A stretch of DNA of 64,000 nt, taken from assembly GCA_012862575.1 (NCBI GenBank), contig BLSF01000026.1, positions 76,657 to 140,656 of the forward strand, written 5' to 3'. A model generated the notes under the pieces. It was not told the origin of the DNA. It saw only the letters and a list, made by a program, of their open reading frames with translations, and did no database searches. This stretch comes from Parietichytrium sp. I65-24A. Taxonomy: Eukaryota > Sar > Bigyra > Thraustochytrida > Thraustochytriidae. Made by a program: the position numbers and the translations under genes. Shown in pieces: positions 7,805-47,439 of this stretch (the first letter of the stretch is position 1; every line of letters begins with the position of its first letter).

Positions 7805-8917
7805 ATGGAGGCTTCGAATTGCAGCTCGGTGCAGTGCGGCTCCAAGGCCGTCTGCGCTGAGTCTGCTCTCGGAGAGCCGCTGTGCTTTTGCACGACAGGC
7901 TTTGCATTTGACTCACCTGTGCGAGCAAGTTCGCAGTACATCTGCGTACACGAGTATGCGGACATCATGTTGGCACTTTGGGCTGCGTGGGCCATATTGT
8001 CGTGCGTCTCGCTGGTTATCATGACTGGCATAGTGTTTCACAGGCACTTCACAAGGCGTCGGGCTGGAATGCAAACAAGCAAGAGAATAACGCTGTCACT
8101 CTTCTTCAAGAACACAGCGACTCACGTGCTTTTTCTCTTGGCTACTTGTCGGAAACTTCAGCTGCCAGAAGATCGCTACATCGGATTCGACTTTTGGCTG
8201 ACAAGCATGTCGTACTTTTGCTTCTCTCTTGCTGGCATTGGCGTTCTGAGGGAGGTGGTTCGCTTTTCTAAATACTTTTACCTCAAGAGGCGGCGCTGGA
8301 CCGAGGAGCATAACCTGGACACTGTTATGCTCAGCAACCGAGCGCTTGGCAAATTAACGCCTAAAGCTACGGCGCAGGTCTTTGCAGTCTTTATTGTGCT
8401 TACGCAACAGGCTTTGGCTTGCTTAACTCTTGGAGAGCATGCAGCGTGGTCGTTGCCTGCGTTCACAGTTTCTTTGGCTGTATTTGACGCACTTTTCGCG
8501 CTTCTTCTCTGGCTGTTCGGAGGTCCCGTCTTGCGCGACCTTCGACAGCTCGCCGACCTCACTTGCTTGAACAAGAATGACCGACCGGCTATGGAAGTGT
8601 TGAACAAGCAAATTAAAGTTGCACAATCAACGTTAAAACTCCAAATACTCGTATTAATGGCAACTTGTACGTCATTCTGTCTGCTCAGCATTCTTGCCTT
8701 GGTGTATTCTGGCATCCTGAGAAACACGGAACTATTCTTCCTGTGCTTTGTTTTCCCAGCATTTATAATTACTCAAATGGCGATCTTTCTCTCCAAAGCT
8801 CGCTTGTCGCGAAGCAGGATTCGCAGAAGTAGAGTCCATCCCGCAACATCGCAGCGACAACAAGGCACCAAAACGAGGATATCCACAGTTTCGAGTCTAC
8901 AACCTTTGCAAAGCTGA
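7805..8917 (+). CDS. EGF-like seven-transmembrane protein, copy 1
   Basis: A 370-aa protein of a family I do not recognise. The N-terminus is cysteine-rich: C6, C11, C17, C27, C29 and C47, with CxC followed by T-T-G-F, an EGF-like signature. Seven hydrophobic segments follow (about 55-78, 95-117, 125-150, 188-208, 218-240, 278-302, 309-329). The loop after segment 1 (HRHFTRRR), the loop after segment 3 (YLKRRRW) and the tail (RIRRSRVH) are strongly basic. By the positive-inside rule this puts the EGF domain outside and the tail in the cytoplasm, the topology of a GPCR. There is no cleavable signal peptide. The loop between segments 5 and 6 is long. The role is inferred only as a receptor-like surface protein. 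It is paralogous to the genes at 10167, 13386, 15710 and 18310. Confidence 0.8.
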   Translation: MEASNCSSVQCGSKAVCAESALGEPLCFCTTGFAFDSPVRASSQYICVHEYADIMLALWAAWAILSCVSLVIMTGIVFHRHFTRRRAGMQTSKRITLSLFFKNTATHVLFLLATCRKLQLPEDRYIGFDFWLTSMSYFCFSLAGIGVLREVVRFSKYFYLKRRRWTEEHNLDTVMLSNRALGKLTPKATAQVFAVFIVLTQQALACLTLGEHAAWSLPAFTVSLAVFDALFALLLWLFGGPVLRDLRQLADLTCLNKNDRPAMEVLNKQIKVAQSTLKLQILVLMATCTSFCLLSILALVYSGILRNTELFFLCFVFPAFIITQMAIFLSKARLSRSRIRRSRVHPATSQRQQGTKTRISTVSSLQPLQS

Positions 8918-10166
8918 TCGGTCCAGCTGGAATCCACCAAAGAGAGAAAAAAGACTCTCGAAGGGTGACTTCATAACGTACTCCAGGGTCGGCAACTCGT
9001 GTACTAGGTATCCCAATTCCACGATTCCATGGTTCCATCGTTCCATGGTTCCATGGCAGTGAGCAGAGGTCCGACAAGACGGAAATACTTCTCGAGTTCT
9101 TGTACGATTCGAGCCAAGCTGCCGTATTGGCTGATCCCTCTCTTTCCTATGTTTTCTGTTTACTATTTTCTCGACAAAGTTATTTCGCACGCGAATGGTC
9201 TTGCGGGCGAAAAGTTTAGTGTGATCCAAGTTAATGACAAGCGAGACGCGTCTGAGGGTCCTCACAATTCTGACTCCTCCGGAGGTGGTCCTGTAGGTCA
9301 AGAATCATGCGACACATCTTTATCTTTTTCTTCTTTTCTTCATCCGATCGGAGTCTCCTCCTTCACTACCAAATCTTTCACGTCTATATTTGGATCGTGA
9401 AAACCGACCCAAGCTTCGCTCAAACCTCGAGATTCGGGAAAGGGGACCTGAAGACATACATGTACAAGGTCAGTACCAGAAATCAACTGTAGATTGCAGC
9501 CACCTTTTCGAGGGAGTGGTTTTCTGTCAACCACAACCTCGCCTGATCTCGAAGAACTGCAGAAAAGGAAAAGGGATATGAAGGAAGGTCATTGAATCTG
9601 GTGTGAGTCAGCAGGCCCACAGTGTGTTCCCATTCTTGCCGAATGTGCGGCCAATTCGGAGCACAGTCGGGTGGGTTCGAGCGCGAAAAGAGATTCAAAA
9701 GGTGAAAAAGTCCGATGGTGATCAAGGTGTCGTTTGGCACTTGGTCAGAAGCGTTTATGCACAAGCCACAGAATACGTACTAGCAGAGAAAATTGAATTT
9801 ACGGAGTCCTTATAACTGCGTCAAGTGCCTTAACAAAACTACTCAGTCTTTCGAAGCTCCGCCTCGGGCCGCGCTTTGCATCGCTCTTTGCGCTGGCGAA
9901 CCTGCGGTACTCAGAAACCTTAAAAGTGAAAGAAGTGGGGTCGAGAAAACAGGCAACATAAGACATTAAAAAAAACAGGCAATACCGGTACAGCATCCAA
10001 GCTCGAGTCACACCAGAACTTGAGAAGTATTTCCAAATTACCGGACCTCAGCTCATCGCCAAATATTTTAATCAGCATTCTGCGAAGGTTGCCGACCCGG
10101 GAGTATGTAGAGAAGGCAGCCTTGAGAACGTCTCTTTCACTCTTTGGTGGGTTCCAGCGGGGCCGA
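8918..10166. other. Spacer between convergent copies 1 and 2
   Basis: The first and last ~85 bp are inverted copies of one another (3' flanks of copies 1 and 2). The unique centre contains a GTTCCATG-type repeat (9016-9057) and short non-convincing frames. No other gene was seen. Confidence 0.55.
9016..9057. repeat. GTTCCATG short tandem repeat
   Basis: Four to five imperfect units of GTTCCATG/GATTCCATG lie directly after the duplicated 3' flank of copy 1. CCATGG palindromes recur within it. Confidence 0.7.
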
Positions 10167-11288
10167 TCAGCTTTGCAAGGGATGAAAACTCGAAACTGTG
10201 GAATTCTTTGAAAGTGCGCCTATCGGTCGCGAGGAAGCAGCGGAAGCAGCGGAATGGATCTTGCCTCGGCGTCTCCTGTTGTGCGACAAGCGAGCTTTGG
10301 AGAGAAAGAGCGCCATTTGAGTAATTAGAAAGGCTGGAAAACAAAAGCCCAGGAAGAATAGCTCGACGTTTCTCAGTGCGCCAGAGTACGCCGACGCAAG
10401 AATGCTGAGCAGACAGAATGCTAAAGCAGTCGCAATCACGATGAGCATTTGAAGTTTCAGTGCCGATCGTGCAGCTCTGATTTGCTTGTTCAACAGTTGC
10501 ATGGCCACCCCACTTCCCAAGTTCGACCGAGTGAGATCGGCAAGCTCTCGAAAGTCACGCGAGATTGGAGCCCCGAATAGCCAAACAAGAAGCACAAAAA
10601 CTGGGTCAAATACAACCCAGGAAAGTGTAAACGCATGCAATGACCAGGTTGGGTTCTCTCCAAAAGTTAAGCAAGCCAGAGACTGTTGCGTAAGCACAAT
10701 AAAGACTGCAAAAACCTGCGCTGTGGCTTTAGGCGTTAACTTGTCAAGCAGACGGTTACTGGATACAACCGGTTTCAGGTTATGCGTCTCGGCCCATTGC
10801 CGTTTCTTGCGGTAAAAATAATTGGAAAAGCGAACCACATCCCTCAGAACGCCAATGCCAATAAGAGAGAAGCAGTGGTATGACATGCTTGTCAGCAAAA
10901 AATCAAAACCGATGTAGCGGTCTTCTGGCTGTTGAAGTTTCCGGCAAGCAGCCAAGAGGTAAAGAATAGACGTCGCTGCGTTCTTGAAGAAGAGTAACAG
11001 CGTTTCCCTCTTGCTTGTTCGCACTCCAGCCCGGTACCTTGTGAAGTGCCTGTGACACACCACGCCACCAATGATAATCAGCGAGACGCACGACAATATG
11101 GCCCACGCAGCCCAAAGTGCCACCATGATATCCGTATACTCGTGTACGCAGATGTACTGTGAACTTGCTCGCACAGGTGAGTCAAATGCAAAGCCTGTCG
11201 TGCAAAAGCACAGCGGCTCTCCGAGAGCAGACTCAGCGCAGACGGCTTTGGGGCCGCACTGCACCGAGCTGCAATCCGAAGCCACCAT
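10167..11288 (-). CDS. EGF-like seven-transmembrane protein, copy 2
   Basis: A 373-aa paralogue of copy 1 in inverted orientation. The ATG at 11288 aligns with the copy 1 start; the frame continues 30 bp further to a TTG that is unlikely to be used. Cysteines are C6, C11, C17, C27, C29 and C47, and seven hydrophobic segments lie in the same places. The EGF-like part (residues 6-50) is identical to copy 1 in protein apart from one position, while the membrane part and the C-terminal tail have diverged much more. The basic tail reads RRRRGKIH. The shared ends of both proteins (FHPLQS here, LQPLQS in copy 1) and the shared 3' flank show descent from one duplicated unit. Function is unknown; a receptor-like role is inference from topology. 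Confidence 0.8.
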   Translation of the reverse strand: MVASDCSSVQCGPKAVCAESALGEPLCFCTTGFAFDSPVRASSQYICVHEYTDIMVALWAAWAILSCVSLIIIGGVVCHRHFTRYRAGVRTSKRETLLLFFKNAATSILYLLAACRKLQQPEDRYIGFDFLLTSMSYHCFSLIGIGVLRDVVRFSNYFYRKKRQWAETHNLKPVVSSNRLLDKLTPKATAQVFAVFIVLTQQSLACLTFGENPTWSLHAFTLSWVVFDPVFVLLVWLFGAPISRDFRELADLTRSNLGSGVAMQLLNKQIRAARSALKLQMLIVIATALAFCLLSILASAYSGALRNVELFFLGFCFPAFLITQMALFLSKARLSHNRRRRGKIHSAASAASSRPIGALSKNSTVSSFHPLQS

Positions 11289-13385
11289 CCCCCAAGGCGG
11301 CTTTTCAAGCAATTCCAAACACTCGCGAGATCATTCCTTTCGATCCTTTTGAGTCATTGGCCTCTTGATTCAACGTGGCCGCGAGGAATAGTCAAGTACG
11401 TCACGCTGCCAGACTTGGGCGGGAATAAGCCGAAGTTCAGGTGCCGGTTTGGCGTCGTGAGCACTGCACCGATTATGGCACGGCAAATAACCCAATCACT
11501 AAAGTATGCGCCACCGATAGGTTCATGCTTCACAGGTATATGTGTCCCTTGTTCTATCTTTTCCCCATGCCCACTTAGCCCACAATGGACATAAAGAGAA
11601 AGCGCACATTGGTTTCGACCAGTTCCGTTGGTATTTCTCGGAGCTGAGCGGAGCTGCTCACGAGCACCGACCGACCGTGTTACTCTCGGGGCTAAGGCCC
11701 TGCGATGGTGGAAAAAGTCTGATGTACCGGCGAAAAACTTTGTTCATGCGATGAGCACGAAATAACTTTTTCCATACCATGTCATCAGCAAAAGCTTGTT
11801 CTTGTTCCAATGCTATCATCTGGGATAGAAATAACAAAGAATAAGAAAGTGTTGAACTGCAAGTGGGAAAATCGGCTTCCTACCACCACATGCGAACGGA
11901 GTCCCGCTGTCTTCTCGGCTAAAGAGTGTGAAACAAACAGCATTTTGGTCCGGAATTGCGACCCTTGTCACGGTGCGACCTTTTACAACAGCCAAGTTCG
12001 AAGTTCAACAAATTCAAGTCAATCTCTTAAGTCCGAGTCCGCCCCACCCCTAACGGCTTTGTTCCTGAATTGGCCGTGGGCAAAGTCAGAGGCTTTTTTG
12101 CGCTCTTTGCACCCCGGCTGGTTAGTAGTTTTGTAAAGTAGACTTCGCCAGTCCAAGCATATAGGCTTAATCTGAAGGGGAAACGCAAGGTCGGGTAAGA
12201 AAACATATTTTACAATTTCCATTTTCATTTCATTGTCATTAGCATAGAAGGTGGTGTGTCCAAACAGGACTTAGACGGTTATAGGCGTTCTCACTCCAGT
12301 CTTATCATGACCCTCTATATGCAAAACCACTGGCGAAGTCAGACGGGGGCATGGGGCGACTTTCTCAGATGGGCGTAAGAGCAGCTACCGCCGGGGGGTA
12401 AGAGCAGCTACCGCTTGGGGGATTAGGCAGCTTACCGCTACCTTTTCGCCGTATAGTTTCCACTTACTGGGGGATTAGGCAGCTACCGCGGCCTTCACCG
12501 TACAGTTTCCACTTGCTGGGGGATTAGCGTGTGGTGTTTGAAAATTTGCTTAAAAGTTTATCTATAGAGAGACGGATCTACGAGCCCTTCAAACAAAGCA
12601 CAAGTGGCGCAGCCGCCATGTGGTCTCATATTTTCATATTTTTAGATATGGAAAAAAAAAACGAGCCAAAGTGCGCCGCCCCTCTTCGGCGATGTCTTAC
12701 CACAGCTTTATTCCTCAGAGTTTCCATAGAATGAAACGTACAGAGCCGTAGAATTGGAAGACATTCGCCTTAAAGTTTAGACTTGCTGGGGGTTAGCTCA
12801 GCGGTTTTGCAACGGACACTTCCTGGTATGATCCAAGACACGAAGGTTTTGGCAGGTCCAGGTTCAGAATTTAAACCCAGAATTCAGAAGCTCAGACTTG
12901 ATCGTTCATAGCCCATCATTCATAATCCGTAAGTGGTAATTCATGGTTGGAGATTCACAGTCAGATATCGTATAACTTGTTGAAATTCATGACTCGAAAT
13001 TCAGAATTTTCATACCATGCTTCTGACGCCTGGGTACACCACTCACAGCGCTCACCTCTCAGAGCCGCAGTGCAACATCTCGGCCCTCACAAGATCTCGG
13101 CCCTCACAAGGTCTCGTGGACTACTGCTCTTGAAGGGTAAAACGCAAGAACACTGATGTGCTATTGCGAGTTGTGGAATTGAAGTAGAGTGGCTCGATGT
13201 AAAGCGAGGGAGTCCAGCAAGTTTGATTGATTGCTTGATCGCCTTGGGAATACATAGATCAAACACACCTAGAAGACCTTTCGAGTTCGCGGGTTGCAGC
13301 CCTTGCCGCGAGCAGCGAGACTTGGGCATTGGGAGTCGGGCGGGACGGAATGCACGAGTGCGCGTGAAGAACGCAGTTGCGCTGG
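11289..13385. other. Intergenic, 2.1 kb
   Basis: The first 75 bp (to about 11362) are the duplicated promoter segment of copy 2. It also holds an imperfect ~50-bp tandem repeat (12372-12530) with one detached copy near 12776-12800. The rest contains only short frames without recognisable features. Confidence 0.5.
12372..12530. repeat. Imperfect ~50-bp tandem repeat (GGGGGATTAGGCAGCTACCGC type)
   Basis: Units start near 12416, 12468 and 12518 with GGGGGATTAG; the first two continue into GCAGCTACCGC and AGTTTCCACTTGCT. Two shortened units precede them. A further copy at about 12772-12800 (AGTTTAGACTTGCTGGGGGTTAGC, given here as its end positions) lies 250 bp downstream. No coding potential. 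Confidence 0.65.
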
Positions 13386-14527
13386 ATGGCGGACACCAAC
13401 TGCAGCACAGTGCAATGCGGGCCGAATGGCGAGTGCAGACTGGAAGACTCGGGAGAGCTGTTGTGTCACTGCACCAGGGGCTTTGCGTTCGACACGCCTG
13501 TGCTCCCCAACACGACGCACATATGTGAACACGAGTTCGCGGAGCTCATGAACTTTCTATGGCTGGTCTGGGCAATTTTCGCGGGGTGCGCGATAGTAAT
13601 AGTTTTTGGGCTGGTGATGTCTTCGATGGTGTTTACGAATTCGCGAAATTGTGAGCGGCCGAAGAGAGCGGCGCTCTTCTTGGTTTTCTGGAAGAACTCT
13701 TTGATTTTATTTCTTTTCCTGATCGCCGCATATCGAAAGCTGAGCCTGCCTCAGGAGCGGTACATTGGCTTTGACTTTACCCTGACGACGCTGTCTTACC
13801 AGTACCTTGGATTGGCCTCCCTTGGGGTTTTGCAACATTTGTTGCAGTTCTCAAACTACTTTTACCTCAAAAAAAACGTTGGGTCATGGAGCACAATCTA
13901 CGAACGAGCGCGACCAGGCGCCAGCTATTGTGCAAGTGCTTCACCCCGAAAAGAGCGGCTCAGGTGTGTGCAGCTCTGATCATTATATCTATGCAAGTCT
14001 GTGCGCTTATCACGCTGACAAGCCATCCCGAAAACTCTCTAATGGCTGTGGTCATTGCTTGGGCAGTCATCAACCCAATTTTGACCACTTTGACTGGGCT
14101 CTTTGGGTCTCCAATTCTCCAGGACTTTCGACAACTAACGGACCTTATCTTGGCAGAAAGCAAAAGAATGCCATCTTCAGAAGCGCTTCTCAAGCAAATA
14201 GGTTTTGCAAGAGCAAATCTCAAGATGCAGATGCGCTTAATAATGACCAATTGCGCAGCGTATGCCGCATTGGCCGTTGCAGGTATGATATCGCGGGGCA
14301 CAAGGACACACATGGAGTTGGTCAGCTTGATTTTCGTCTTTCCATACATAATGATCACACAGTTCGCCTTGTTTCTATTCAAGTTTCGAATGGTGAGGAG
14401 AAAAGCTCGGAGAAGTCGAGTTCACGCAAGCACAGAATTACAACAAAAGACAAAACATCACGCTACTAATACTTCCGCAACGTCAGCTGCATCTGTGTCG
14501 AAACATGCTGGCTTGAGTACATCATAA
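13386..14527 (+). CDS. EGF-like seven-transmembrane protein, copy 3, with a frameshift
   Basis: Reading from the ATG at 13386 gives the EGF-like part (C6, C11, C17, C27, C29, C47; sequon NTT before the last cysteine) and three membrane segments, ending in FYLKK. The frame then shifts: the matching continuation (RWVMEHNL, segments 4-7 and the tail RRSRVH) is in another frame and runs to the stop at 14527. The break is at an A8 run near 13868-13877, where copies 1 and 2 have FYLK followed by basic residues, RW or QW, and a short run to HNL. One extra A would restore the pattern. It may be a sequencing error in a homopolymer, a young pseudogene, or a truncated 197-aa product. Both halves keep family motifs, which argues for a very recent event or an assembly error. 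Confidence 0.7.
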
Positions 14528-15709
14528 TTCTTGGCGTTTGGCTCTTGACTTTGTGCATTGATTTTTTTTGAACGAAAAAAGGACAAGAAAACAGAAGGCA
14601 CAATTCATTGATCGAAATTAATTGATTGCTTTCAAGTTGAATGATTTCGTGTCGGGAAATGATTGATAACAATGAAACACAAAGAGAAATATTTCAGGAG
14701 GCATAGAAGCTAGACGTCCACTATCGGACTGACTTTGAAGGCCACTTGAGTTGCGCGAATGCAAATCATATGAGAGCCTGGTCGATAGTCAGCTACCTCG
14801 AAAAAATACCGATTTACTGTTAAACATAACAAGAGGAACTCCATCACTTCTTTCTCCCTATATATCCACACCACGATGGCAGGGGTTACAGCTGCTCACT
14901 GTCGTTCACCTGCTGGAACTATAACCCACCACTCTTGAGGAGCACTCGCATCATGTTGCTTGGAGGTACTGAGCACTACCGGCAAAGCCTGGCAGTAGCT
15001 ACTGAGTGTGAGTAACGTAGCTTTGCAAGCTTTGCACCTTCCTCAAGACCAGAGAGCCGTTAAACATTTCATTTTCAAAGTTCCAAGTTCCAAGTTTGCG
15101 AAGTTCAAGTTTCGAAGTTCGAAGTTTAAGTTAGGGTTTGAAGCTCGGAGCCTAATTGCCGAGAGTGGGCACCTGTCGATGGTCGCTACCGTAATCTTTC
15201 GGCAGCACGTCCGACGCGAGCTTAAGCACTGGCAATTGTCATGGCGGAAGAGTTTTGCTACACTGCTCTTAAACTCCCTCCGCAAGCAATGCCTAGTTGC
15301 TCTCCGACGTGTGATTCTCGGAGGGCCGGACCAACCATTGAGGGAACTTCTCACGTGCAAAGGAGTGATTATATTTGATTACCTGTCATGTCACTCCACA
15401 AACAGGGGTTCCGACAGGAGAGGATGGTTGCTTTCGAAGGCTAGTTTGCGACTGTGAGGAGCCGTCGCTGTTGATCTCGGGCGGATGTGTTGAGCTGGAA
15501 TCTCATGCATCTTGGCCAGGCGATGCTATTAAGTTGTACTGTTAAAAAGTACTGACTCGCAAACCTGTTACAATTAACACCTGAGCTTTGCCTTGAGAGG
15601 AGAGAGTGGGTCGCAATACCTTCGAGCCACTGCAGACATTGCGTACAACTTGCCAGGCGTGACTGCGGTCCGCGGCAACCTGGCCTTCCACTGCGGCCCA
15701 TCCGTCGCC
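14528..15709. other. Intergenic, 1.2 kb
   Basis: A stretch at 15075-15135 repeats AAGTTCNAAGT/TCGAAGTT words. Frames of up to about 150 codons exist in both strands here but have no recognisable features and start at non-ATG or poor sites. The in-frame extension upstream of copy 4 has no ATG. No other gene is supported. Confidence 0.5.
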
Positions 15710-16828
15710 ATGGAAGTGTGCGAAGACGTGTGGTGCGGGGAGCTGGCCCAATGCGTGGTGTCTGATGAGACACCCGCGCAAGCTCTGTGTGAATGCGTCG
15801 CGGGGTTCACGATGGACCCCCCGCAACCACCAAATTCGACTGGACTGTGTCAGTACGAACTGGAGTTTGTCAACGGACTATGGAAATTGCACCTTCTCAT
15901 TGCTTTGGTTGCCTTCTTGGCAGTTTTCATCAGCTTGGTAAAAACCTTCCGCGTATCAGGCGGCTCCAAGGTCGTCTTCATGAAACTTTTGTTGAAAAAT
16001 ACTATTACCTTGCTCATAATTATTGCGGCGGCGTGCCGAAAGCTATTCGCTGGGAAGGAGGTGTATTATGGGGGAGACGCAGCGCTCTCCGGTCTTATTT
16101 TCAGCGTCTCTGGCGTGATTTCGATGGGAACCTCGTACCATGTGCTTCGATTGTGCGTTTATCTCGAGCAAAAGCGCAAAAACTGGGTAGCCACTCACAG
16201 CCTGGAGTCAAGGCTGAAAGCGACAAAGCTGAGGACTTCGTGTTCGCCAAGGGTGTGGGCAGTCACTCTTTTGGTTCTGACTCTAGTTTCTCAAATCGCA
16301 GCCGTCGCAATTGTAGCTCTATACCCCCAAAGGGGTTCAGGGGCGCTGTTTAGCTATGCGTGTTGGGCGGTCATCAATCCCGGCCTCGGGCTCATGGCAT
16401 ATTTCAGCACACAGCCAATAATCAGCGATTTTGAGGCCATGCTCAACCTAAGCGTTGGCACAAGCAAAGTTTCTCCTTCAAATGATCTCACGTCGCGAGC
16501 AAAGTCCGCTCGAAATCTTCTCCGGGCGCTCCAACGCTTGGTGTGCACGAATGCTGCCATTTTTGAAATCAACACCATTCTGCTTCTATGCTCTTCCGGT
16601 TATCGACGAAACGCCGAACTTCAGGTCCTACTAATGGCTTTCCCTTACCTTTCTTGGTCGCAGCTATTTTTATTCTTCAAGAAGAAAGGTCAATCAAACG
16701 CGAAACGGAGGTCTACCCGGGTTGGCGCAAGCAAAACTGCCCATGGTGTTTCTTTTCGTTCGACCTCCCCAAATGTGCTTTCACCAGAAAGTTCGACCGC
16801 TTCTTCAAAGCTCAGCATGGCTTCATAA
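15710..16828 (+). CDS. EGF-like seven-transmembrane protein, copy 4 (second subfamily)
   Basis: A 372-aa protein starting at an ATG in a strong context (GTCGCCATGG); the longer open frame upstream starts only at TTG. Cysteines are C4, C9, C15, C27, C29 and C47, with CECVAGF as the EGF-like CxC-GF, and an N-glycosylation sequon NST precedes the last cysteine. Seven hydrophobic segments follow. Conserved with copies 1-3 are LKNT in segment 2, the RKL just after it, the basic loop around KRKNW...H, and the FP...Q...F pattern of segment 7. The tail carries RRSTRVG. Overall similarity to copies 1-3 is low, so this is a separate branch shared with copy 5. Function is unknown; a surface receptor or sensor is inferred from topology only. 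Confidence 0.78.
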   Translation: MEVCEDVWCGELAQCVVSDETPAQALCECVAGFTMDPPQPPNSTGLCQYELEFVNGLWKLHLLIALVAFLAVFISLVKTFRVSGGSKVVFMKLLLKNTITLLIIIAAACRKLFAGKEVYYGGDAALSGLIFSVSGVISMGTSYHVLRLCVYLEQKRKNWVATHSLESRLKATKLRTSCSPRVWAVTLLVLTLVSQIAAVAIVALYPQRGSGALFSYACWAVINPGLGLMAYFSTQPIISDFEAMLNLSVGTSKVSPSNDLTSRAKSARNLLRALQRLVCTNAAIFEINTILLLCSSGYRRNAELQVLLMAFPYLSWSQLFLFFKKKGQSNAKRRSTRVGASKTAHGVSFRSTSPNVLSPESSTASSKLSMAS

Positions 16829-18309
16829 TCGTGAGACGAGACCTTCTTTTATTGTCGACAGGACATACTTGCAAAGCCAAGATCTTCGAGAGTCATTCTG
16901 CCTTGTTACACCATCGAAGTCCCGGAGCGTCCAAACTTTGCATACGACGTTGCGCACTGATTTGCGGGAGAGGTGTCTATTTGGTATTTAGCATAGTATA
17001 TTTGTTTGCGATACTACTTTCGGGGCAGCCGCCCTCGGCAGGCAAAAAATTCTGAGGTTCTACCGCTGTGGTCCCTCTCCCGTGCCAGTAACGATACTCA
17101 TTACTCAGTACTCGCGGCGATAAGCTGACAACCCATCTCATATTATTCCATCTCATCTCAGGAGCGGATACGATCACATCTCTGTTTCCAGCTTTGACTG
17201 TACCCAAATTCCTTCGCCGATGCCGACCAGGAGGAAATAGAAACTCTGCATATTTTTTGTGAAAAAGCATAAAACCGGCCTCCTTGCCAGTGTAAAGTCA
17301 AGTCTCGCCATTCGGGGAGGGTGGCAACAAAAACGTCCCAGAGCTGACATTCACTGTTACTATTCTCACTTTCACTGTTCTGCTCACTCCCCCCCATTCT
17401 TTGTCTCTCTCTCTCTCTCTCTCTCTGGCAGCTACTCCAGCTCAACGAAGGTTTTCGGGTATTCGCAGTGTCACTTGATGTGACGAGGGCCTTTGGAAAC
17501 TAGCTAGCTAGTAGTTATTTTTAATTTTGTCATCATCCAACTGTGTACATAGACAGCTCTCTTCCTTGTTGACCGAGGGTGGTGCTCTAGTAGGTGTTCG
17601 TTCGTCTTTGCCATCAACTTTGGTTTACAGTCAGTAATCAAATCGTCAAGAAGTGCAAAATTCAAGAATTTAAGAATTAGTACCGTTACGAAGGTGCAAA
17701 TTTTCAGTAGTGAGATCGCATAATCGCGTCTTACACGGCGTGCACGAAAAGTGTTTCTGTTTACTGATCACTGACCAGAACAAGCTGCGCGAAACTAGGA
17801 AGGCCACATAAAGACGTGCTTCGCGTTTCTTGTTCCATCGTCAGGTGGTACGTTTATGCGGCGGTGTTACTCTGCCACTTGAGGAAATTCGGTAGTATTG
17901 ATGAAATTTGGTCTTGTGCTCCGGCTTCATTTGTGGAAAGAGACGAGAGAGAAGCAGAAAGTTTACCGGGACCCTCTCACAGGATGATCTCTCAAACGGT
18001 ATCAGCACTGGGCATTCAACGGAGGAAAAGTAGGTCCAAGCGATTGCAAACACGTCACGATTAACTGAGAGAGGCAACCCGTATCGGAGCCGACTGCACG
18101 GGTTAGTAAGAACGGTGGGGGTGTCATCACGATGCCCTGGCTCATGCTGAGAAGGAAAAAAATAAGCTTTCAGTCGCCATAGGCTGGTTTAATTCAATTA
18201 AGACTGTGAGGGAACGAAATAAGGAAAGTGGTCACTGGACAAATTTGTGTCTGTCCGCGAGAGCTCACTCTTGCGCGGGCGCAGTCGCAGTCACTCGCGA
18301 TCGATAGAA
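16829..18309. other. Intergenic, 1.5 kb
   Basis: Contains the 3' flank of copy 4, a CT tract at 17402-17426 and the promoter of copy 5. Short frames on both strands lack features. Nothing else seen. Confidence 0.5.
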
Positions 18310-19446
18310 ATGTCTGTCTGCGAGAACGTGTCCTGCGGGGTACTCGCGGAGTGCGTGGAGTCGGAGGACGTCCCGACTCAGGCACTTTGCATGTGTCACT
18401 CGGGATACACATTGGATTCACCCAGGGAGCCAAACGCGACGGGCCTCTGCCACTACGAAGTTGAGTTGTTGAATATAATCTGGATAGTGCATCTGGTCGT
18501 TGCCGTTGCCGCAACATTTGCGATCTTCGTCACTTTGGCCATCCCTGTAGTTCGTGGACAAGACAAAATCTCGAACTTCTTGAAGCTGTTGGCGAAGAAT
18601 TCAATCACGTTTTTCGTCATTATTCTTGCAGCATGGAGAAAGCTCACGTCTTCAGAGCCGGTGTATTTTGGCGGGGACCCGTGGCTCTCCATGGCTATAT
18701 TTGGATTCTTCTCTGTCATATCTGTCGGGACATCGTATCATGTGCTTCGATTATGTGTCTATTTAGAAAAAAAACGCAATGGATTGATTGCGTCTCATAA
18801 CCTCTCATCAAGAATATCGGCGTCTAGGCTCGGAAATTCGTGCTCTGCGAGGAGATGGGCACTCACACTGCTTTTCTTCACTGTCATCACTCAATCTGCT
18901 TCCGTGGGGCTCGTCGCAATGTTTCCTCAGGCCGGCCTTGGCTTGATTTTGAACTTTTTAAGTTGGGAGGTTTTGAACCCGGCGCTCGGGTTCATGGCAT
19001 ACTTTAGCACCAAGCCGATAATTAGAGACTTTGAAGCCATGCTCGAGCTAAGCATGGGCCCAGAAAGAGTGAGTGCTACAATGGACTTGTCCAAACGAGC
19101 AAGGTCTGCCAAGAACGTATTGAAAACTCTGCAAAGGCTGGTTTGTGTAAATGCTGCATTGCTGGGAACCAACACGTTCTGTGTTCTGTTGTTTTCGTCT
19201 TATCGGCGGCACGTTGAGCTACAAGTTGTGCTCATGTATTTTCCATACCTGTCATGGTCACAGCTAATTCTCTTCTTTAAAAAGAAAGAGCAGGCAGATG
19301 TGAGACGAAGATCAACCAAAGTCGGGCCAGGAGGGCATCGCGTGAGCGTCCGAGCAAGTTCTGGTGTGGTGTCTTCTCCGAGTCGCACGAGTCGCAGCAT
19401 GAAGGGGTCCAGGACCGAATCCACAAAGGATAAGGGATCTGACTAA
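18310..19446 (+). CDS. EGF-like seven-transmembrane protein, copy 5 (second subfamily)
   Basis: A 378-aa paralogue of copy 4; the ATG at 18310 aligns with its start and the upstream in-frame extension begins at GTG. Cysteines are C4, C9, C15, C27, C29 and C47 with CMCHSGY, and sequon NAT comes before the last cysteine. Seven hydrophobic segments, a basic loop LEKKRNG after segment 3, and the tail motif RRRSTKVG followed by a serine-rich stretch. Copies 4 and 5 share long blocks in the membrane region, for example GTSYHVLRLCVYLE and FPYLSWSQL, and lie in tandem about 1.5 kb apart. The basic RRST tail could be a kinase target, which is inference. Function unknown. Confidence 0.78.
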   Translation: MSVCENVSCGVLAECVESEDVPTQALCMCHSGYTLDSPREPNATGLCHYEVELLNIIWIVHLVVAVAATFAIFVTLAIPVVRGQDKISNFLKLLAKNSITFFVIILAAWRKLTSSEPVYFGGDPWLSMAIFGFFSVISVGTSYHVLRLCVYLEKKRNGLIASHNLSSRISASRLGNSCSARRWALTLLFFTVITQSASVGLVAMFPQAGLGLILNFLSWEVLNPALGFMAYFSTKPIIRDFEAMLELSMGPERVSATMDLSKRARSAKNVLKTLQRLVCVNAALLGTNTFCVLLFSSYRRHVELQVVLMYFPYLSWSQLILFFKKKEQADVRRRSTKVGPGGHRVSVRASSGVVSSPSRTSRSMKGSRTESTKDKGSD

Positions 19447-19781: not shown

Positions 19782-21649
19782 TTAGACCCTAGAGCAGGAC
19801 ATGGAGCATGTCTTGGAGTAGCAAACCGATTCCACCTCGGCCTCGCTCTCCATCATAGTTCCGATCTGTCTGCGGAGGGATGTAACTTCATCCTTGAGAA
19901 GATCTGAGAAGCCTTCCATGTTTTGCATCTCGCGATACACTGCCGAGTCAGGACCGGTAAACAGTGAGGTTGGGATAGCCATGAAGAGAGCCCAAGCTAG
20001 CAGAGGGTTCTGTGAGGTGTAACCCAGATCGACTAGCGCTTGTTTAACTAATTTGAAGGTGTTCAATTTGGAGATCTCGGTTTTGATCTCCTCCATAGCG
20101 AGCTCATGATCGCGGGGCCGGTATGGGAGGTAGCGATAAGAATACTCGTCTTCGTATGACTTGAGTATCTCGAAGAGCTCGTCGGGCAGACAGTGGAAGA
20201 AGCAGAGCACTGCACGTTCCCTATCTGACACGGTCTTTTCCTGAACAACCGTGATACAGCTTCCGTTCTCGCAGGAAGACCCGCATCCGAGTGGCAGCTG
20301 TTTCTCCTCTTTTTCCAGGTTTCCGAGTTTTTCGAGGAACGAGCTAAGTTTGTTCCAATCTGTTTGCTTCGTCCGAAAAGTGAAAATGATAGAGCCCGTA
20401 TATGTAGATGGCTCCACCACCATGCAGCCTCGAGGCTTGCCAGTAGCCGGGTCAAGGTAGCTCATCGACTTCCACATGTCCTCGACTTTAACCCAGTGGG
20501 CAGGATACTTGAAACGAGCCACGTCAAGAATTAGCACTGCGTCCTCTTCTTCGCAATAGCCACCAATAGGCGAAAAGTGGCCATCTCCAGTTTGCTTGAA
20601 GTGCTGACGAGAGTAAGACACCACCAAGGCGCGTTCGCTGGAGGATACCTTCGAGCAGGCTTTGACCAGCTCGCGAAATTCTTCCAGAGTTCCTCCTCCG
20701 GGGAGGTACTTACGAACGGCAAGCCCGTTGCATTTTGCGAGACAGATCCACTCTGATATTGATATACCGGTTTCCTTTACTTGGTCGAGCGGCGTGCAAC
20801 AGTCTGTGGGAGAAGATTAATCACGATCATAGTTAGTTGTCGCACATACAGACAAACACACAAACACGAGCATGTGGCCATTAAACTAGAAAAAAGAAGA
20901 AGAAAAGTGGGGAGTGAAAGCATGAGGAGACCCGGAAGGAGAGACTTACTTAACATATCTTCATGAAACCACCGCCATGGACCCTTCCATATCTTGCCAC
21001 TGTCAACATTCAGCGCGTTCAACACCATGACCAGCGACGAGATGCCGCAATACGCCGGTTCCTCCTGTGTGCGATACTGCTGCGCCAGGCTAAAGTAGCA
21101 CTTCATCGTTCCTCCAATGAGCGCTTTCTGAAACAAGTCCTCCCCCCGTGGCGAGTCGAACGCAGCAAGCGCTGGCGGCACTGGCAGCTTTCTTCTAAAC
21201 AGACACTTCGGCCTCGCATCTACCACCTCCGCCTGGGTATCCACGCTTTCCTTTCCCATCTCCGCGCTCTTCGTGCGAACTATCGACACCATCTCCGCGC
21301 CTTGCGCAATGACTCCCGCATCCAACCCCATCTTCAGCTCATTCTCTCGCACGACTAACCCCTCCTTCAGCCGCGACGTCGCGCACGACTTTCCATCTAC
21401 TGCGCTGCAGCATTTCGACTTTGCTTCTCCGCCCAATACTCCCGCATTCTGCATCATTTGCACATTCTGCTGCACATTCTGCTGCACATTCTGTTGCACA
21501 TTCTGTTGCACATTCTGCATGTTATGCATGTTCTGTTGCACATTCTGTTGCACATTTTGTTGCACATTCTGCATGTTCTGATGCATATTTTGCATGTTCA
21601 TTTGCATATTTTGCTGCATGTTCTGCTGCATATTTTGCACGTCCTGCAT
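19782..21649 (-). CDS. Phytochelatin synthase (glutathione gamma-glutamylcysteinyltransferase), two exons
   Basis: CDS complement(join(19782..20803,20950..21649)), 573 aa. It makes heavy-metal-binding phytochelatins from glutathione. The peptidase C83 domain spans residues 150-350. The catalytic triad known from plant enzymes is present: Cys201 in EEPAYCGISS, His309 in GDGHFSPIGGY and Asp327 in LILDVARFKY. The spacing of 108 and 18 residues is very near the plant enzyme. The exon join restores MLNCCTPLDQVKETGI, matching the plant pattern. A C-terminal domain of about 220 aa carries extra cysteines, including a CGSSCENGSC cluster likely to bind metal. The N-terminus holds a long run of MQQN/VQQN repeats, unusual for the family. 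An open frame and a possible splice acceptor lie further upstream, so the true start may be in an earlier exon. Confidence 0.88.
20804..20949 (-). other. Spliceosomal intron of phytochelatin synthase, 146 nt
   Basis: On the minus strand it begins GTAAGT directly after ATGTTAA and ends TTCTCCCACAG. A branch-point-like ACTAAC lies about 30 nt before the acceptor. Removing it joins two frames into a continuous phytochelatin synthase domain, phase 1. Confidence 0.9.
21452..21649 (-). repeat. Coding 12-bp repeat encoding MQQN/VQQN
   Basis: About fifteen imperfect 12- to 15-bp units (plus-strand TTGCACATTCTG) encode a Met/Val-Gln-Gln-Asn tract of about 65 residues at the very N-terminus of the phytochelatin synthase frame. 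The opposite strand is also open (HILLHILL...) but is a shadow. Confidence 0.8.
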
Positions 21650-22523
21650 AGCCCACTCGCGCTTCAGGCTGGCCAGCGCGGACCTTGCGCACGCCAGGCC
21701 CCTGCTTTTGCTGCTCCACCTGTTCCCGGCGAACAGTTCGCGAACTGCGCGCGAACCTCGCCACGCCACGAGCGCCAGCTTGCACGCCGGGATTCTCCCC
21801 CCGCACTGAGGGGAACGAGCCCGCCGAGGACACTTGTACGGAAACGCCAACTGTGGGGAGAGAGAGGGAGAGAGGGAGAGAGAGCAGATGAGAGAGAGCA
21901 GAAGCGAGCGCGGATGGGCGGAACGTTCCTGGAACAGCGCTGGAGGGCGGGCGAGCCGGCTCCCGTTCGGTCTCGAATTCGTCGCAGGAAGAAGAAGAAA
22001 AAAAGGGTGCGCGCGGACCTGGGTTGTATTGGCCAGTAGTTATTTGCTACTCTCTTCCCTTTCCTTTCTCTCCTTTCCTTTCTTTCACTTTTGCTTTTCC
22101 CTTTCAAATACATAATTCAACAGTCCTAGTAGTGCGATAGAGGAGACTACGCACGCTGTCGCTAGAGAGCGGTAGAGACTGCTATGGGAGTGTATGTGAT
22201 TGGCGGAAATGCTGAAACTTGCTTTCGCTTCCGGATGCGTCGTGCGCGGGGTTCGTTATTGTACTGTAGGTGTTGTATTTAGGCCCTGAGGTATCTCAGG
22301 GATAGGAGTGGAGGTGACCGATGTAGTACGGAATAGGTGTGGCGGGTGAAGACCTGGCGAGTTGTGCAAGGTTAGTTTTCACTAGATGTGCATAGCATTG
22401 CCTACCACCAGAAGTTGTGCGTGACGAAACCTGTGTGCGCTATGTCTGGTAATGTGAAAACTAGTGGATAAGACACTTGTAGATACACGTGTTGTCGTGC
22501 ATTGACTCGTATAAGACCAAGCG

Positions 22524-27912: not shown

Positions 27913-29618
27913 ATGGCATACGCACGTACGATGTTATCAGCTGCCATGATGATCGCGGCGGCAGTGTTTCTAATGGCTAGCGTTGTGAGTGGCGAAATTG
28001 CAGAGCATAGGCTTCGCGAGCTGCCAGGATATGGAAAGTTGGAGGGTAGACAGTGGAGTGGGTATGTGGCAGTCAACGTAACGGCGGAACGTAATGCGGG
28101 CAAGGCCACGACGAATTATGTGCATTATTGGATGGTGGAGAACGCGGCCAAAGATGCTTCAGCGCCGATGGTCGTGTGGTTCCAGGGCGGACCAGGAGGG
28201 TCCAGCATGATTGTAGGTTTTCAAGGTCCGAAAATGTTTGTTCGCAGGACTGCTATTCATTTTGCGAAAGGTGCTGATGGGGCTTGATTTTGTGTGTGTG
28301 TGTGTGTTTCCGTGGTTGGCAGGGGTTCTTCACGGAGAACGGGCCGTTCACGGTCAATGACTTTTCGTTCGACGGCAGGGACGAAGAGTCCATCAAGGTG
28401 TTTGACAACCCGCTCAGCTGGCACAGATTTGCCAACATGCTCTATGTGGAGCACCCTGCGCCTACTGGATTCAGCAAGTGTGAGCCCGAGCCGTGCGTTT
28501 GGAATGACACCACTCAGTCTCTCGCTAGCTACGATTTCATGGTCGAGTTCTTCAGGCTGTACCCGGAGTTTGCGGACAAGGACTTTTACATCACTGGTGA
28601 GAGCTACGCCGGCGTGCTGGTCCCCACGCTATCCAAGCAGCTGCTCGAGCACCGCAATGAACGCAACAAGGACGTTGCGCCCTGGAACCTTCGCGGGATT
28701 GCGCTGGGCAACGCGTGTCCAGGCAACCGTGTCTACACCTGTACACCGTACAGCGGATGGCTCGGGACTAAAGTGGCATTAGACTTTCGGTTTTATCATG
28801 GTATGATCAGCGAGGCCCTCTACGCCAAGATCCTCCGCACATGCGAGGGACAATGGGATTCTTACGAAGCCCCCTCATCAAAAGCGTGCCGTGACCTCCT
28901 CGAGGACCCCATCCGCCCTGTAATGAGCAAAGCAGGAGACACGTATAACATGGGCGGGGGTTACTTCTTGTTTGATACTTGCAAGCAAGACCTTGGCGCA
29001 GTTGACCCAAGTACCCACACGAGGCCCGCAAACTTGAATATCACCGCCGCTCTGCTGTCTGGTGCGGCCAAAGCCGCCGCCGGCGACTCACGAACAGAGA
29101 TCCTCACGCTAAACTCTCTCGAGTCCGTCGACCACACCCTACCAATCCCCAACAGCGGTGAGTACTGGTGCGGACAGGAAAGGGCAATGATCGTGTATTT
29201 GAACCAACCAAATGTACAACACGCCCTAAACGTCAAGCCGACTAATTTCCAGATGAGCACGAGCCTCAACTACAATTTCACGGCGCATTCCTTGCTGGGC
29301 CTCTACAGGGATCTTCTCGTGGATGAGCTGGATATACTACAGTACAGCGGAGACGCCGACCCCTGCGTACCGTACGTTGGAACCCAACGGTGGATCCAGT
29401 CTCTGAATCTCTCGACGGACATGCCGTGGGCGCCATGGACAACACCGGGCAATCGTCGTTCTCCAGCAGGATACCTTCACGTAATGAACGCCAATCATTC
29501 CAGCCACTTGTTTGCCTTTGCGACTATCCGAGCCGCAGGGCACATGAGTCCGCGCTACAAACCAGAGGAAGCGTCACATCTTATCCAGATGTTCATTTCC
29601 CGATGGAAGAAGGCGTAA
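27913..29618 (+). CDS. Secreted serine carboxypeptidase (family S10), two exons
   Basis: CDS join(27913..28212,28323..29618), 531 aa. The N-terminus is a signal peptide of about 27 residues with a long hydrophobic core (AAMMIAAAVFLMASVVSG), so the enzyme goes to the vacuole/lysosome or outside. The S10 triad is complete: Ser194 in ITGESYAG, Asp444 in YSGDADPCVP and His507 in AAGHMSP. The substrate-site block WFQGGPGGSSM is present, with Gly where most members have Cys (GGPGCSS). Several N-glycosylation sequons are seen. The enzyme cleaves C-terminal residues from peptides; plant relatives also act as acyltransferases. Splicing joins SSMI to GFFTENGPF, the expected family sequence. The frame extends 42 bp further upstream only to a GTG. 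Confidence 0.88.
28213..28322 (+). other. Spliceosomal intron of serine carboxypeptidase, 110 nt
   Basis: It starts GTAGGT after AGCATGATT and ends GTTGGCAG. A (GT)n run lies near the 3' end. Phase 0; removal gives the S10 family sequence across the junction. Confidence 0.88.
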
Positions 29619-43568: not shown

Positions 43569-44910
43569 ATTTGGCCGTTCATTTGATGATCGGAGATGCG
43601 ACGTACTATACAAGGTACTCGAGCACGTCAAAGAAGCCGCGTCGTCGTCGCCCGCGCTCTCCTGGCAATGCCGGGGTAGCATCGTTAAACTATTGACCAT
43701 GTAATGTCCTCTTGAATATATTACACATTTCGCCATATTTCCTCATGGGACCTTCGCTTCGCGCAATCAAATTAATTCGTAATTGGCCCATAACTAGTCA
43801 AGGCATAGTCTTGACACACCTGGACGTATATATTCTTTCCTGTCAACATGCACACGCGCTTTCCAAAAGTTGCATTTTTCGCTGACAACTCGAGTCTGGG
43901 TTCCCCACTCGAGAACCCGCTCCACCCGCCACTCGAGAACCAAGCTCGCCGCGCGTCGTCCGGAGCCCTACACTTTACTTCAATTAAACCTTAACTATTC
44001 CGGTCCTCCTCGGAAGAACCCAATTCCGCCAGCCAGCAAAAAACCATGGCGTCAACACCCCTACCGATAACTCTACCATCGACCGCTCTCTTGCTTACTC
44101 CGGACCCTAAGCGCCATACCTACTAGCAATTACTAACACATTAGGATGGAAGGTAACAAGAAAGGGTTCCCCACTTCCCACTAGGACCTATTACCAGCAC
44201 CTCTAAATTAAAAACGACAGACATACAAATCTCTCTCCACCTAGAAAAACATAGCGATATCATAATCTTTTCATACGACATGATAACACATACTATGCCT
44301 AATCCTCTCATATCATGTTTGCTAATCCCGTGGGAGCTCTTAGGCGAGCGTGACGGCGCGCTAGCAAAAGCGTTGTTACCAAACTCTACGCAAAAACCTA
44401 CAAGAACATGGAACATCGATCACATCATAACTCATCGATCGATGTCCTATTCTAATTTCACTCTAACAATTGATAGGTTTTCCTGTCAATTGATTAAGGT
44501 TGATTGTCGACAAAAAGTGAGTGAGCGATTATGTGATTATGAGATTATGTGATTATGTGATTGATTGATTGATTGATTGATTATGTGATTGATTGATTAT
44601 GTGATTGATTATGTGATTGATTGAATCATTGAATGATTGAAAAGTCAAAGTGACAAAGGCAAGTGCACCCAACGCAAAGCAAGCAACGCAACGCAACGCA
44701 ACGCAGTTCAACCACAGTAAGCAATCACTGTTCCCGCGATTCTCGAGGGCCGCATTACAATCAGTCGAGGTTGATATCGCAGAAGCGGAAAGAGCACTTG
44801 TCGTTGTGTAGTTGTGTAGTTGTATCCGAAAAGGACGCGGGAGATTGTGGGCTTTGAACGGGAGTGCGTAGCTTAGATTGGTTGGCAAGTGCGAGGTTGA
44901 GCGTGGAAAG
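43569..44910. other. Intergenic, 1.3 kb
   Basis: Holds the 3' flank of the Sec14-GOLD gene, a repeated ACTCGAGAACC word (43905-43955), a GATT/ATGTGATT array (44526-44640) and an ACGCA run (44671-44706) in the promoter of the histidine gene. No other gene is supported. Confidence 0.5.
44526..44706. repeat. GATT/ATGTGATT array followed by ACGCA repeat
   Basis: About 115 bp of interleaved GATT and ATGTGATT units, then about 35 bp rich in AACGC. It ends about 200 bp before the histidine fusion ATG. Confidence 0.8.
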
Positions 44911-47439
44911 ATGGCGGACCCAACGCTCAAATTCGTTCGCAGCGACTTTGTCCAGCTGCCTCAATATGCTCCCATCCAGCCCCTGGACGTCGTCGCCGCA
45001 GAGATCGGCGTCGCGGTGGAGCGCCTGGCCAAGCTGGACGCGAATGAGAACCTGTACGGGCCAATGCCGGAGGTGGTCGAGGCGGTTGCAAAGTGCCAGG
45101 GAATGCACATTTACCCGGATCCAACTCAGACGTACCTGCGCCGGGACCTGGCGGAGTACGCCGGTGTCAGCAGCGAGCAGGTGGTCGCCGGAGTGGGATC
45201 TGACGAGCTGTTGGACCTGCTCATCCGGCTGATGGAGCCCGGATCGGGCATCGTCACCGCGCCGCCAACATTCGGGATGTACTCGTTTCTGGGCAAGATT
45301 GCAGGGTCCAGGGTGATTGATGTGCCGAGGGGCCCCGCGCCAGAGTTTGAACTGGATGTGGACGGGATCGTCAAACAGGTCGAGGAGAACGGAGCGAAGT
45401 TGGTCTTCGTGGCGTCGCCCAACAACCCCACCGGAGGGCTAATGACCGAGGAGCAAGTCCACGCGATCTGCGCCACAGACTGCGTGCTCGTTGTGGACGA
45501 AGCCTACGCGGAGTTCTCTGGGGGCAGTGCCGTCAACTTGGTGGAGAAATACCCGAATCTCGTGGTGCTGCGCACGTTCAGCAAGTGGGCTGGGCTGGCT
45601 GGTATGAGAATTGGGTTCTCTGTCGCCCACGCAAAGTTCACGGAGAAAATCTTGGCCATCAAGCAGCCGTACAACATCCCTGTGGCGAGTGAGGCGGCCG
45701 CGCGCGCCGCGCTTGCAGTCAAGGACAAGATTTTCCGCGAACACATCGGGCCGATCTTAAAGGAGAGAGAGCGCATGATTATCATGCTCCAGGAGTTTGA
45801 ATGGCTCCGCCCAATCCCTTCTACGGCCAACTTTGTCTTGTTTCGAGTAGACAAACCCATGGTGGCGTCCAAGGTGTACGCACAGCTCCGCAAGCTTGGT
45901 GTGCTTGTTAGGTACTATCCAAGCGGCGTTCTTGCTGGCTTCATCCGCATCTCGTGCGGCAGACCTTCGGACACCGTGCTTCTCGTGGAAGCTCTTCGTA
46001 CTCTCGTGCACAATGGCTCTATCCTCGACGAATCGCTTGGTGCCGTAAGCGGAGCTCCATCGCAACATAAGACCCCTAAAGCTCTCCTCCTGGACATGGA
46101 CGGCGTCCTTGCCGAAGTGTCCAAATCCTATCGCCAGGCCATCAGTCAGACGGCGCAACATTTTGGTGTCACAGTAACTCAAGAGGACATTACCAGGGCG
46201 AAACTGGAAGGAAATGCGAATGACGACTGGAAGCTCACCCACCGTCTGGTGAGCGACAAGCTCGGAAGCAGCGCTCCGAGCTTGGAACAGGTAACTGAAA
46301 AGTTCCAGGAGCTGTACCTCGGTCAGAATGGCAGCGGCGGGCTCCGAGACCTAGAGTCCCTCATCCCTTCTCGCGCACTCCTCGTAGAGCTCCGCAAGCG
46401 CTGTGAACTCGGTATGGCCATCGTCACTGGTCGCCCTCGCGAAGAGTGCCTTCACTTTTTAGACCTCTACAATCTTCGCGCTCTCGTTTCGGATGGCACC
46501 GGCTCTCCGATCCTTGTCTGTATGCACGAAGCACCTTCCAAGCCGTCACCGGAGCCTGTCCTCCTTGCGCTTAAGCGCCTCGGGGACGTCAAACCTGAAG
46601 ACGCTGTCTTTGTTGGTGACACCCCTGACGATATGAAGGCCGGAAAGGCCGCAGGCTGCTTGCCGTACGGCGTGCTCACCCCCGAAGGTGGAAGTGCGGA
46701 GGTTAAGCAAGCTTTGGAAGCTGCCGGAGCCATCGCAATCATGAAGCCAGGCTTTGTGGAGCTCCTAGACGTGTTTCCGTCTACCTCTGGCAACATGACT
46801 AGCTCCGGAAGCTTTACACCACAAGCATCCGGGATGGGCTCTGTTAGGGCGGGGGCAAGGCAGGCCTCTGTAGAGAGAAAGACAAAGGAGACCAGTATTC
46901 AAGTCAAGGTGAATCTCGATGGTAAGGGAGAAAGCGATGTGAGCACTGGCCTCGGGTTCTTGGACCATATGATTGATGCGCTGTCGAAGCACTCCCGGTG
47001 CGACCTCGTCGTGAAATGCAACGGAGACCTGTGGATCGACGACCACCACACCGCGGAGGATGTCGGAATTGCCTTGGGAGAAGCATTCGACAAGGCTCTC
47101 GGTCCTCGCAAAGGCATTAAGCGCTGGGGCTACTCACTGTGCCCTCTTGATGAAGCACTATCGCGAGCAATCGTGGATGTATCTAGCCGCCCATGGGCGG
47201 TTGTGGATATTGGCCTGAAGCGCGAGATGATTGGCACAATCTCCACTGAAATGCTTGTGCATTTCATTCACTCTTTTATTACTGCAGCGCGGCTCACAGT
47301 GCACGTGGACTGTCTCAAGGGCGACAATGACCACCATCGCGCGGAGAGCGCCTTTAAAGCCTTGGCAGTTGCCATCCGGATGGCCATCAGCGCGGACGAG
47401 TCCGCAGGAGTTCCAAGTACAAAAGGCGTCTTAGCTTGA
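44911..47439 (+). CDS. Trifunctional histidine biosynthesis fusion: HisC aminotransferase - HAD phosphatase - HisB dehydratase
   Basis: 842 aa in one exon. Residues 1-375 are a complete histidinol-phosphate aminotransferase: [27 protein letters not shown] and the PLP lysine Lys225 in [11 protein letters not shown]. Residues 385-625 are a HAD hydrolase with all four motifs: DMDGVL (395-400), TGRPR (506-510), Lys544 and GDTPDD (569-574). Residues 645-842 are a full imidazoleglycerol-phosphate dehydratase with [19 protein letters not shown] and [15 protein letters not shown] metal-binding blocks and the STKGVL ending. HisB, HisC and a histidinol-phosphate phosphatase catalyse three consecutive steps. 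If the HAD domain is that phosphatase, one protein would turn IGP into histidinol. No clear transit peptide is seen before HisC. The frame upstream begins only at TTG. Confidence 0.92.

Follow-up and report, generated by a model that had tools for sequence, protein, structure and literature searches.

We propose that five genes at positions 7805-19446 of the window (i.e., the whole 64,000-nucleotide stretch of DNA analyzed here) encode GPCR-like surface receptors with a single membrane-proximal EGF module and without a GAIN domain, and that they belong to an expanded family unnamed in the libraries searched, a reading to which we give a probability of roughly 0.6. A preliminary description of this DNA, whose parent assembly comprises 42.5 Mb in 172 contigs, had announced five genes in this array. 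All five were found there, although only four are intact, the frame of the third copy being broken at a run of A, and the second copy lies on the minus strand. The copies are arranged as follows.

7805..8917, plus strand: copy 1 (c1), 370 aa, with an EGF-like module (7820-7945), seven transmembrane segments (7TM) and a basic tail, as read from the ORF, the EGF pattern and TM hydropathy
10167..11288, minus strand: copy 2 (c2), 373 aa, ATG at 11288; an inverted duplicate, 73% identical to c1
13386..13880, plus strand: first piece of copy 3 (c3), with an EGF-like module (13401-13526) and TM1-TM3 by alignment
13869..13876, plus strand: frame break of copy 3, a run of eight A
13886..14527, plus strand: second piece of copy 3, in a different frame, with TM4-TM7 and a basic tail
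15710..16828, plus strand: copy 4 (c4), 372 aa, ATG at 15710, EGF-like module 15719-15850
18310..19446, plus strand: copy 5 (c5), 378 aa, ATG at 18310, EGF-like module 18319-18450

With c1 as the query and an E value limit of 0.001, the genome search returned these five copies, every one of them on the contig of the window. Copies c1 and c2 form an inverted pair (73% protein identity; 82% DNA identity over 1211 columns by blastn), and their dN of 0.17 with a dS of 0.35 is counted as constraint between them. Copies c4 and c5 share 54% identity with each other and 23 to 29% with c1 and c2, and the pieces of copy 3 are 37 to 46% identical to c1 and c2, the first piece reaching 46% amino acid identity to c1, and likewise to c2, over 159 residues. 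The local expansion suggested beforehand is thus borne out by an array of related copies. In copy 3, the first frame matches c1 residues 3 to 163, from the EGF module to just beyond TM3; the match ends at the eight-A run and resumes in another frame, which may reflect a real frame shift (pseudogene) or an assembly error, and the two pieces were analyzed separately throughout. The likely start codons place a methionine 3 or 5 residues ahead of the first cysteine in all five copies, the starts given in the ORF list for copies 2 to 5 sitting further upstream, at TTG or GTG.

The pattern C-x4-C-x5-C-x9/11-C-x-C-x2-G-[FY]-x13-C matched exactly five times in a six-frame translation of the 64-kb window, once per copy, so that the six cysteines in fixed spacing noted earlier hold in 5/5 copies. 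A chance origin of the pattern was rejected, as no match arose in 30 shuffles of 4-base blocks. N-glycosylation sequons lie within the EGF region of c1, c3, c4 and c5.

The family extends well beyond the array. Outside the array, c5 had a weak genomic match (E 0.55) that corresponds to a 394-residue frame with a six-cysteine N terminus and seven segments, to which the profile of the window copies aligned with an hhalign E value of 1.3e-5 over 120 columns. With this relative and its successors used as queries, further relatives were found on many contigs, and 33 loci were read in the genome: the 5 window copies, 9 loci of an "R" clade, 13 of a "K" clade and 6 very divergent single loci, two further arrays being included. 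The R clade is marked by W-[TS]-G-x-S-[DH] or a similar stretch beyond the fifth cysteine, and the K clade mostly by G-K-[TS]-[DE]. K members form arrays of four on contig C73 and six on C69, and single copies lie on C1, C3 and C172, the last of which is close to one of the C73 copies and might be an unplaced allele. Five further candidate places (C7:517047, C50:72777, C39:231081, C9:608813 and C2:1167476) scored E values from 0.0045 to 0.30. All family counts are lower bounds because the search scores the best candidates only. Five collected loci were judged not to be members: L029 and L030 (TnpB-like), L048 (a carboxypeptidase with EGF), and L022 and L023 (cAMP-receptor matches). The 27 uninterrupted members entered an alignment in which members share 11 to 34% identity with a central member; omitted from it were the broken copy 3 and, on C69 and C1, five loci with interruptions, whose pieces were read separately (27 + 6 = 33).

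The common ancestry of these groups was examined with profiles of the whole proteins and of the seven-helix part alone. R and K matched each other on the seven-helix part with an E value of 5e-13 (reversed control, 0.004). The window copies matched R at 7.2e-6 over 234 columns as whole proteins and at 0.037 on the 7TM part, worse than the reversed control at 0.011; the corresponding values against K were 0.041 and 0.22, so that neither pairwise 7TM-only test of the window copies, with R or with K, was significant. When the 7TM parts of 19 dispersed members were pooled into one profile, that of the window copies matched it over 75 columns in TM1-TM3 with a score of 43.8 (E 2.2e-5), whereas the reversed control gave 31.4 (E 0.0015) and 60 block shuffles gave at most 24.5; with the pool restricted to R plus L024 and L025, the score was 33.3 (E 0.00098). 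Two further marks point the same way: the last Cys-Cys spacing is 17 residues in 22 of the 27 members (15, 16 or 18 in the other five), and an aromatic residue follows the last cysteine at +11 in 25 of the 27, and at +12 in c1 and c2. The script locating that cysteine required a nearby aromatic residue, so its presence was partly selected for, its exact offset not. Since cysteine spacing and aromatic offset are independent marks that agree with the 7TM profile match, sequence comparison places the window copies in the dispersed EGF-7TM family, on support thinner than that for the R-K kinship. In the tree, c1, c2, c4 and c5 form one clade (support 100/99) next to L024 and L047 (91/86), in a topology that carries a long-branch warning and whose deeper order is weak. 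The five-member array of the preliminary description was therefore correct as a clade and too narrow as a family.

At the family level, the N-terminal module is best described as an EGF-like domain on the basis of profile comparison. The curated Pfam EGF cut-off was passed by 8 of the 27 members (L027, L028, L032, L034, L036, L038, L039 and L041), the window copies taken alone staying below every curated Pfam cut-off, and the family profile matched EGF modules of teneurin-2 (7e-7) and notch-1 (3e-6) in the PDB. All six cysteines are present in 24 of the 27 members, the module being eroded in part of the K clade (4 cysteines in L042, 3 in L046 and L052), where the helices persist. These data bear on a rather unlikely alternative, namely, that the proteins serve adhesion or structure, the EGF module attaching to other cells or to surfaces and the helix bundle acting only as an anchor, without G-protein signaling. 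EGF modules are frequent in adhesion proteins, the best solved relatives of the profile are the teneurin and notch modules, and [YF]V, a possible PDZ-type anchor, is the C terminus of five of the 27 members, all from the R clade. Nevertheless, the seven-helix layout and the basic inner loops are kept at 11 to 34% identity to the central member, the EGF module decays in the C69/C1 subclade while the helices stay, and the G-alpha set of the genome is large (see below), all of which argues against this alternative.

Seven hydrophobic segments were counted in each of the four intact copies at a hydropathy threshold of 1.15, as the preliminary description had claimed for all five; the broken copy 3 gave 2 + 4 segments at the same threshold. 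Although robust in c1, c2, c4 and c5, the count depends on the threshold in divergent members, with seven segments in 23 of the 27 at 0.75, 13 at 1.0 and 11 at 1.15, the others having mostly six. In the window copies, net charge is -2 to -8 in the acidic N-terminal regions and -1 to +1 in the almost neutral outer loops, the inner loops are basic, and the basic tail mentioned earlier carries +9 or +10 in c1, c2, c4 and c5. Moreover, in 23/23 of the members with seven segments at threshold 0.75, positive charge is higher in the inner than in the outer loops, in L034 only barely (5 versus 4). Hydropathy and the charge rule thus predict seven helices with the N terminus and the EGF module outside, in agreement with the topology first suggested. 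In L027, L032 and L034, an outside module is also expected because a signal-peptide-like hydrophobic stretch, judged without a signal-peptide predictor, precedes it. Inspection by eye revealed no signal-peptide exon upstream of the window copies, and with the ATG this close to the first cysteine (3 or 5 residues), a cleavable signal is probably lacking, so that helix 1 would have to export the N terminus.

Two AlphaFold models of modest confidence (pTM of about 0.5) each consist of an EGF-like hairpin and seven long helices. Except for one designed protein, the best 50 fold matches listed for each model were GPCRs and microbial rhodopsins, with a Foldseek E value of 0.011 at best. The comparison with the GPCR fold called for initially thus yielded bundles resembling GPCRs and rhodopsins, on modest support. 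AdipoR/CREST structures were not among the best 50 matches listed, an absence that carries no weight against them. For both models, the highest VIA Z (14.6 and 16.6) came from microbial rhodopsins. A retinal-binding lysine in helix 7 marks microbial and animal rhodopsins; no lysine was found in the predicted TM7 of c1, c2, c4 and c5, and a retinal protein was rejected. With no lysine in the helix 7 core and 5 to 12% identity, at most a common helix arrangement links the family to microbial rhodopsins.

None of the 27 members matched a Pfam GPCR or 7TM receptor family at E 1, where HMMER filters can drop weak matches, which agrees with the initial view of an apparently undescribed family. The same approach recognized the genome's own cAMP-receptor-family protein at 39 bits. 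Pfam scans were run member by member because an alignment-wide scan showed 25 of 41 families. Subthreshold non-EGF matches in single members (TMEM208_SND2, Sec62, COX4, QCR10, TMD0_ABC, CrtO and others) were dismissed as noise. A class A reading was likewise rejected, NPxxY occurring in 0/27 members and the [DE]RY of c1 and c2 sitting in outer loop 1. Class E cAMP receptors (Dicty_CAR), RSF and GPRch1-3 resemble the family as seven-helix proteins of single-celled eukaryotes with short termini. The Dicty_CAR family is also present in this genome, yet its cAMP-receptor protein has no profile match to the EGF-7TM family. For RSF and GPRch1-3, no extra domain is listed in the relevant part of PMC12716839, and by that description they differ from the EGF-7TM family.

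A close architectural parallel lies in the adhesion GPCRs with EGF modules (EGF-TM7: CD97/ADGRE5 and EMRs), which likewise combine an outside EGF-like module, seven helices and an outside N terminus. It could therefore be argued that the proteins are degenerate adhesion GPCRs, i.e., true family B2 receptors after loss of the GAIN domain, all the more so as a GAIN-less latrophilin-like receptor has been noted in the thraustochytrid Hondaea (a passage of PMC10445921). We consider this origin very unlikely, since 7tm_2 was not matched in the 27 members at E 1 and just 29 to 81 residues lead to the end of the EGF module, leaving no room for a GAIN domain; together with the lack of a Pfam GAIN/GPS match in these members, this length upholds the absence of GAIN reported previously. 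A single EGF module fixed to TM1 and a protist host further separate the family from EGF-TM7 receptors.

The combination of EGF and seven helices is also found in the TMEM8/PGAP6 proteins of the CREST superfamily, and the low-confidence fold leaves room for a seven-helix protein that is not a receptor, e.g., an intramembrane enzyme of the CREST kind related to this EGF-bearing group. Such a function appears most improbable: no intramembrane histidine is common to c1, c2, c4 and c5, in line with the earlier remark that CREST-type histidines were not seen, H-x3-H occurs in 3 of the 27 members, none from the window, and no such Pfam family was matched by the 27 members at E 1. CREST members conserve three histidines, one aspartate and one serine, as stated in a passage of PMC9436119.

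The reading as GPCR-like receptors gains from the signaling context of the genome. PF00503 was found over the cut-off at 17 of 24 places, i.e., about 13 G-alpha loci by position, and a cAMP-receptor-family GPCR is also encoded; with about 13 G-alpha loci, coupling of the EGF-7TM proteins to G proteins is plausible. The host may be a thraustochytrid, a tentative placing with indirect support from part of PMC6050695, where G-alpha and class C GPCR domains are reported to be enriched in this group; the word EGF is absent from its main text. Of the receptor-like family first described, the architecture and the membership hold up, while a receptor function is what we infer from them and the predicted fold is modestly supported.

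We propose a model in which one six-cysteine EGF-like module would stand outside the cell at a fixed distance from helix 1, followed by a seven-helix bundle whose inner loops are basic, as is the inner, Ser-rich tail. The module would bind a ligand that is secreted, exposed on a surface or part of the matrix. Given that the linker between module and helix 1 is short and does not vary in length, binding could shift helix 1 and with it the bundle, and the inner loops might relay this change to a heterotrimeric G protein, of which the cell has many. A repertoire of ligand specificities could then have arisen through tandem duplication and rapid divergence, by analogy with other chemosensory receptor families.

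More tentatively, and short of what we would claim for the window genes themselves, the family could represent a new eukaryotic GPCR class, with dozens of divergent receptors, each with one EGF module held at a set distance from helix 1 and without GAIN, and could form a main chemosensory or cell-recognition repertoire alongside the expanded G-alpha set. If true, EGF-7TM receptors would have arisen outside animals by an independent route. The family of at least 33 loci supplies candidate receptors feeding the many G-alpha proteins of this genome, would add an EGF-plus-7TM design to those of animals, and offers a test case for mechanical coupling between EGF and helix 1. It also illustrates how much of a family may lie hidden behind a local array of five copies when its members share only 11 to 34% identity with a central one.

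No relatives were found in the viral collections (for c5, L032 and L041) or in the prokaryotic collections (for L032). Among the literature matches listed, none describes a protist EGF-7TM family in its title or the start of its abstract, within a coverage that mostly leaves aside subscription papers, and the passages of PMC12221091 and PMC10101102 concerned are silent on such a family. Two weak profile matches in the PDB were set aside, one to the EGF part of ADGRE5 (E 0.18) and one to a GPR4 construct (E 0.12, TM6-7). As for other traits of the genome, an algal host was set aside, the light-harvesting families PF00504 and PF00502 having no match in an exon-by-exon search of the assembly, from which organelles may be missing. 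Of 11 matches to the carrier domain PF00550, which neither prove nor disprove a PUFA synthase with carrier domains in tandem, 3 share a long frame on C7, 5 share one on C66 and the remaining 3 lie elsewhere.

Among the nine loci read in the R clade, a dispersed subgroup of the GPCR-like EGF-7TM family, five members (L026, L032, L034, L035, and L036) have an acidic tail with a [YF]V end, and this C terminus could possibly serve as a PDZ ligand. In the K clade, likewise a dispersed subgroup, seven loci located at C69:60475-76011 and C1:1215817-1216919 (contigs of the same assembly) carry a decayed EGF module; five of these seven are interrupted by a stop near TM5 at a similar site, which we read as a shared intron. 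Within the array of five EGF-7TM genes, a short direct repeat lies between copies 2 and 3, at about 12416-12527 of the window; its units agree at 87% in an alignment of 63 columns.

Three loci read in the same genome are not members of the family (coordinates within each locus):

L029, 1118-2707, minus strand: long frame matching the Cas12f1/TnpB TNB domain (1e-12)
L030, 357-2129, plus strand: long frame similar to that of L029
L048, 334-1980, plus strand, contig C18: serine carboxypeptidase carrying an EGF module, above the Pfam cut-off, at its C terminus

TnpB-like genes of eukaryotes are named Fanzor. The carboxypeptidase locus L048 is about 28 kb from the EGF-7TM locus L027 on contig C18.

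Further genes were found in the window and on contigs C7 and C66:

Window 19782-21850, minus strand: phytochelatin synthase, in two frames
Window 28284-29618: further S10 carboxypeptidase
Window 44878-47439, plus strand: class I/II aminotransferase, HAD-type hydrolase, and imidazoleglycerol-phosphate dehydratase, joined in one open frame
Window 47597-50893, minus strand: large protein containing leucine-rich repeats as well as ankyrin repeats
C7, about 19.8-27.6 kb: single open frame, 4460 residues, 3 carrier-protein domains
C66, about 8-23 kb: single open frame, 5583 residues, 5 carrier-protein domains

The frames on C7 and C66 are perhaps giant PKS/NRPS genes, and the aminotransferase-containing frame is probably a three-part histidine-pathway fusion. 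The split of the phytochelatin synthase probably results from an intron; the first of its two frames bears a long NMQQ-rich N terminus.
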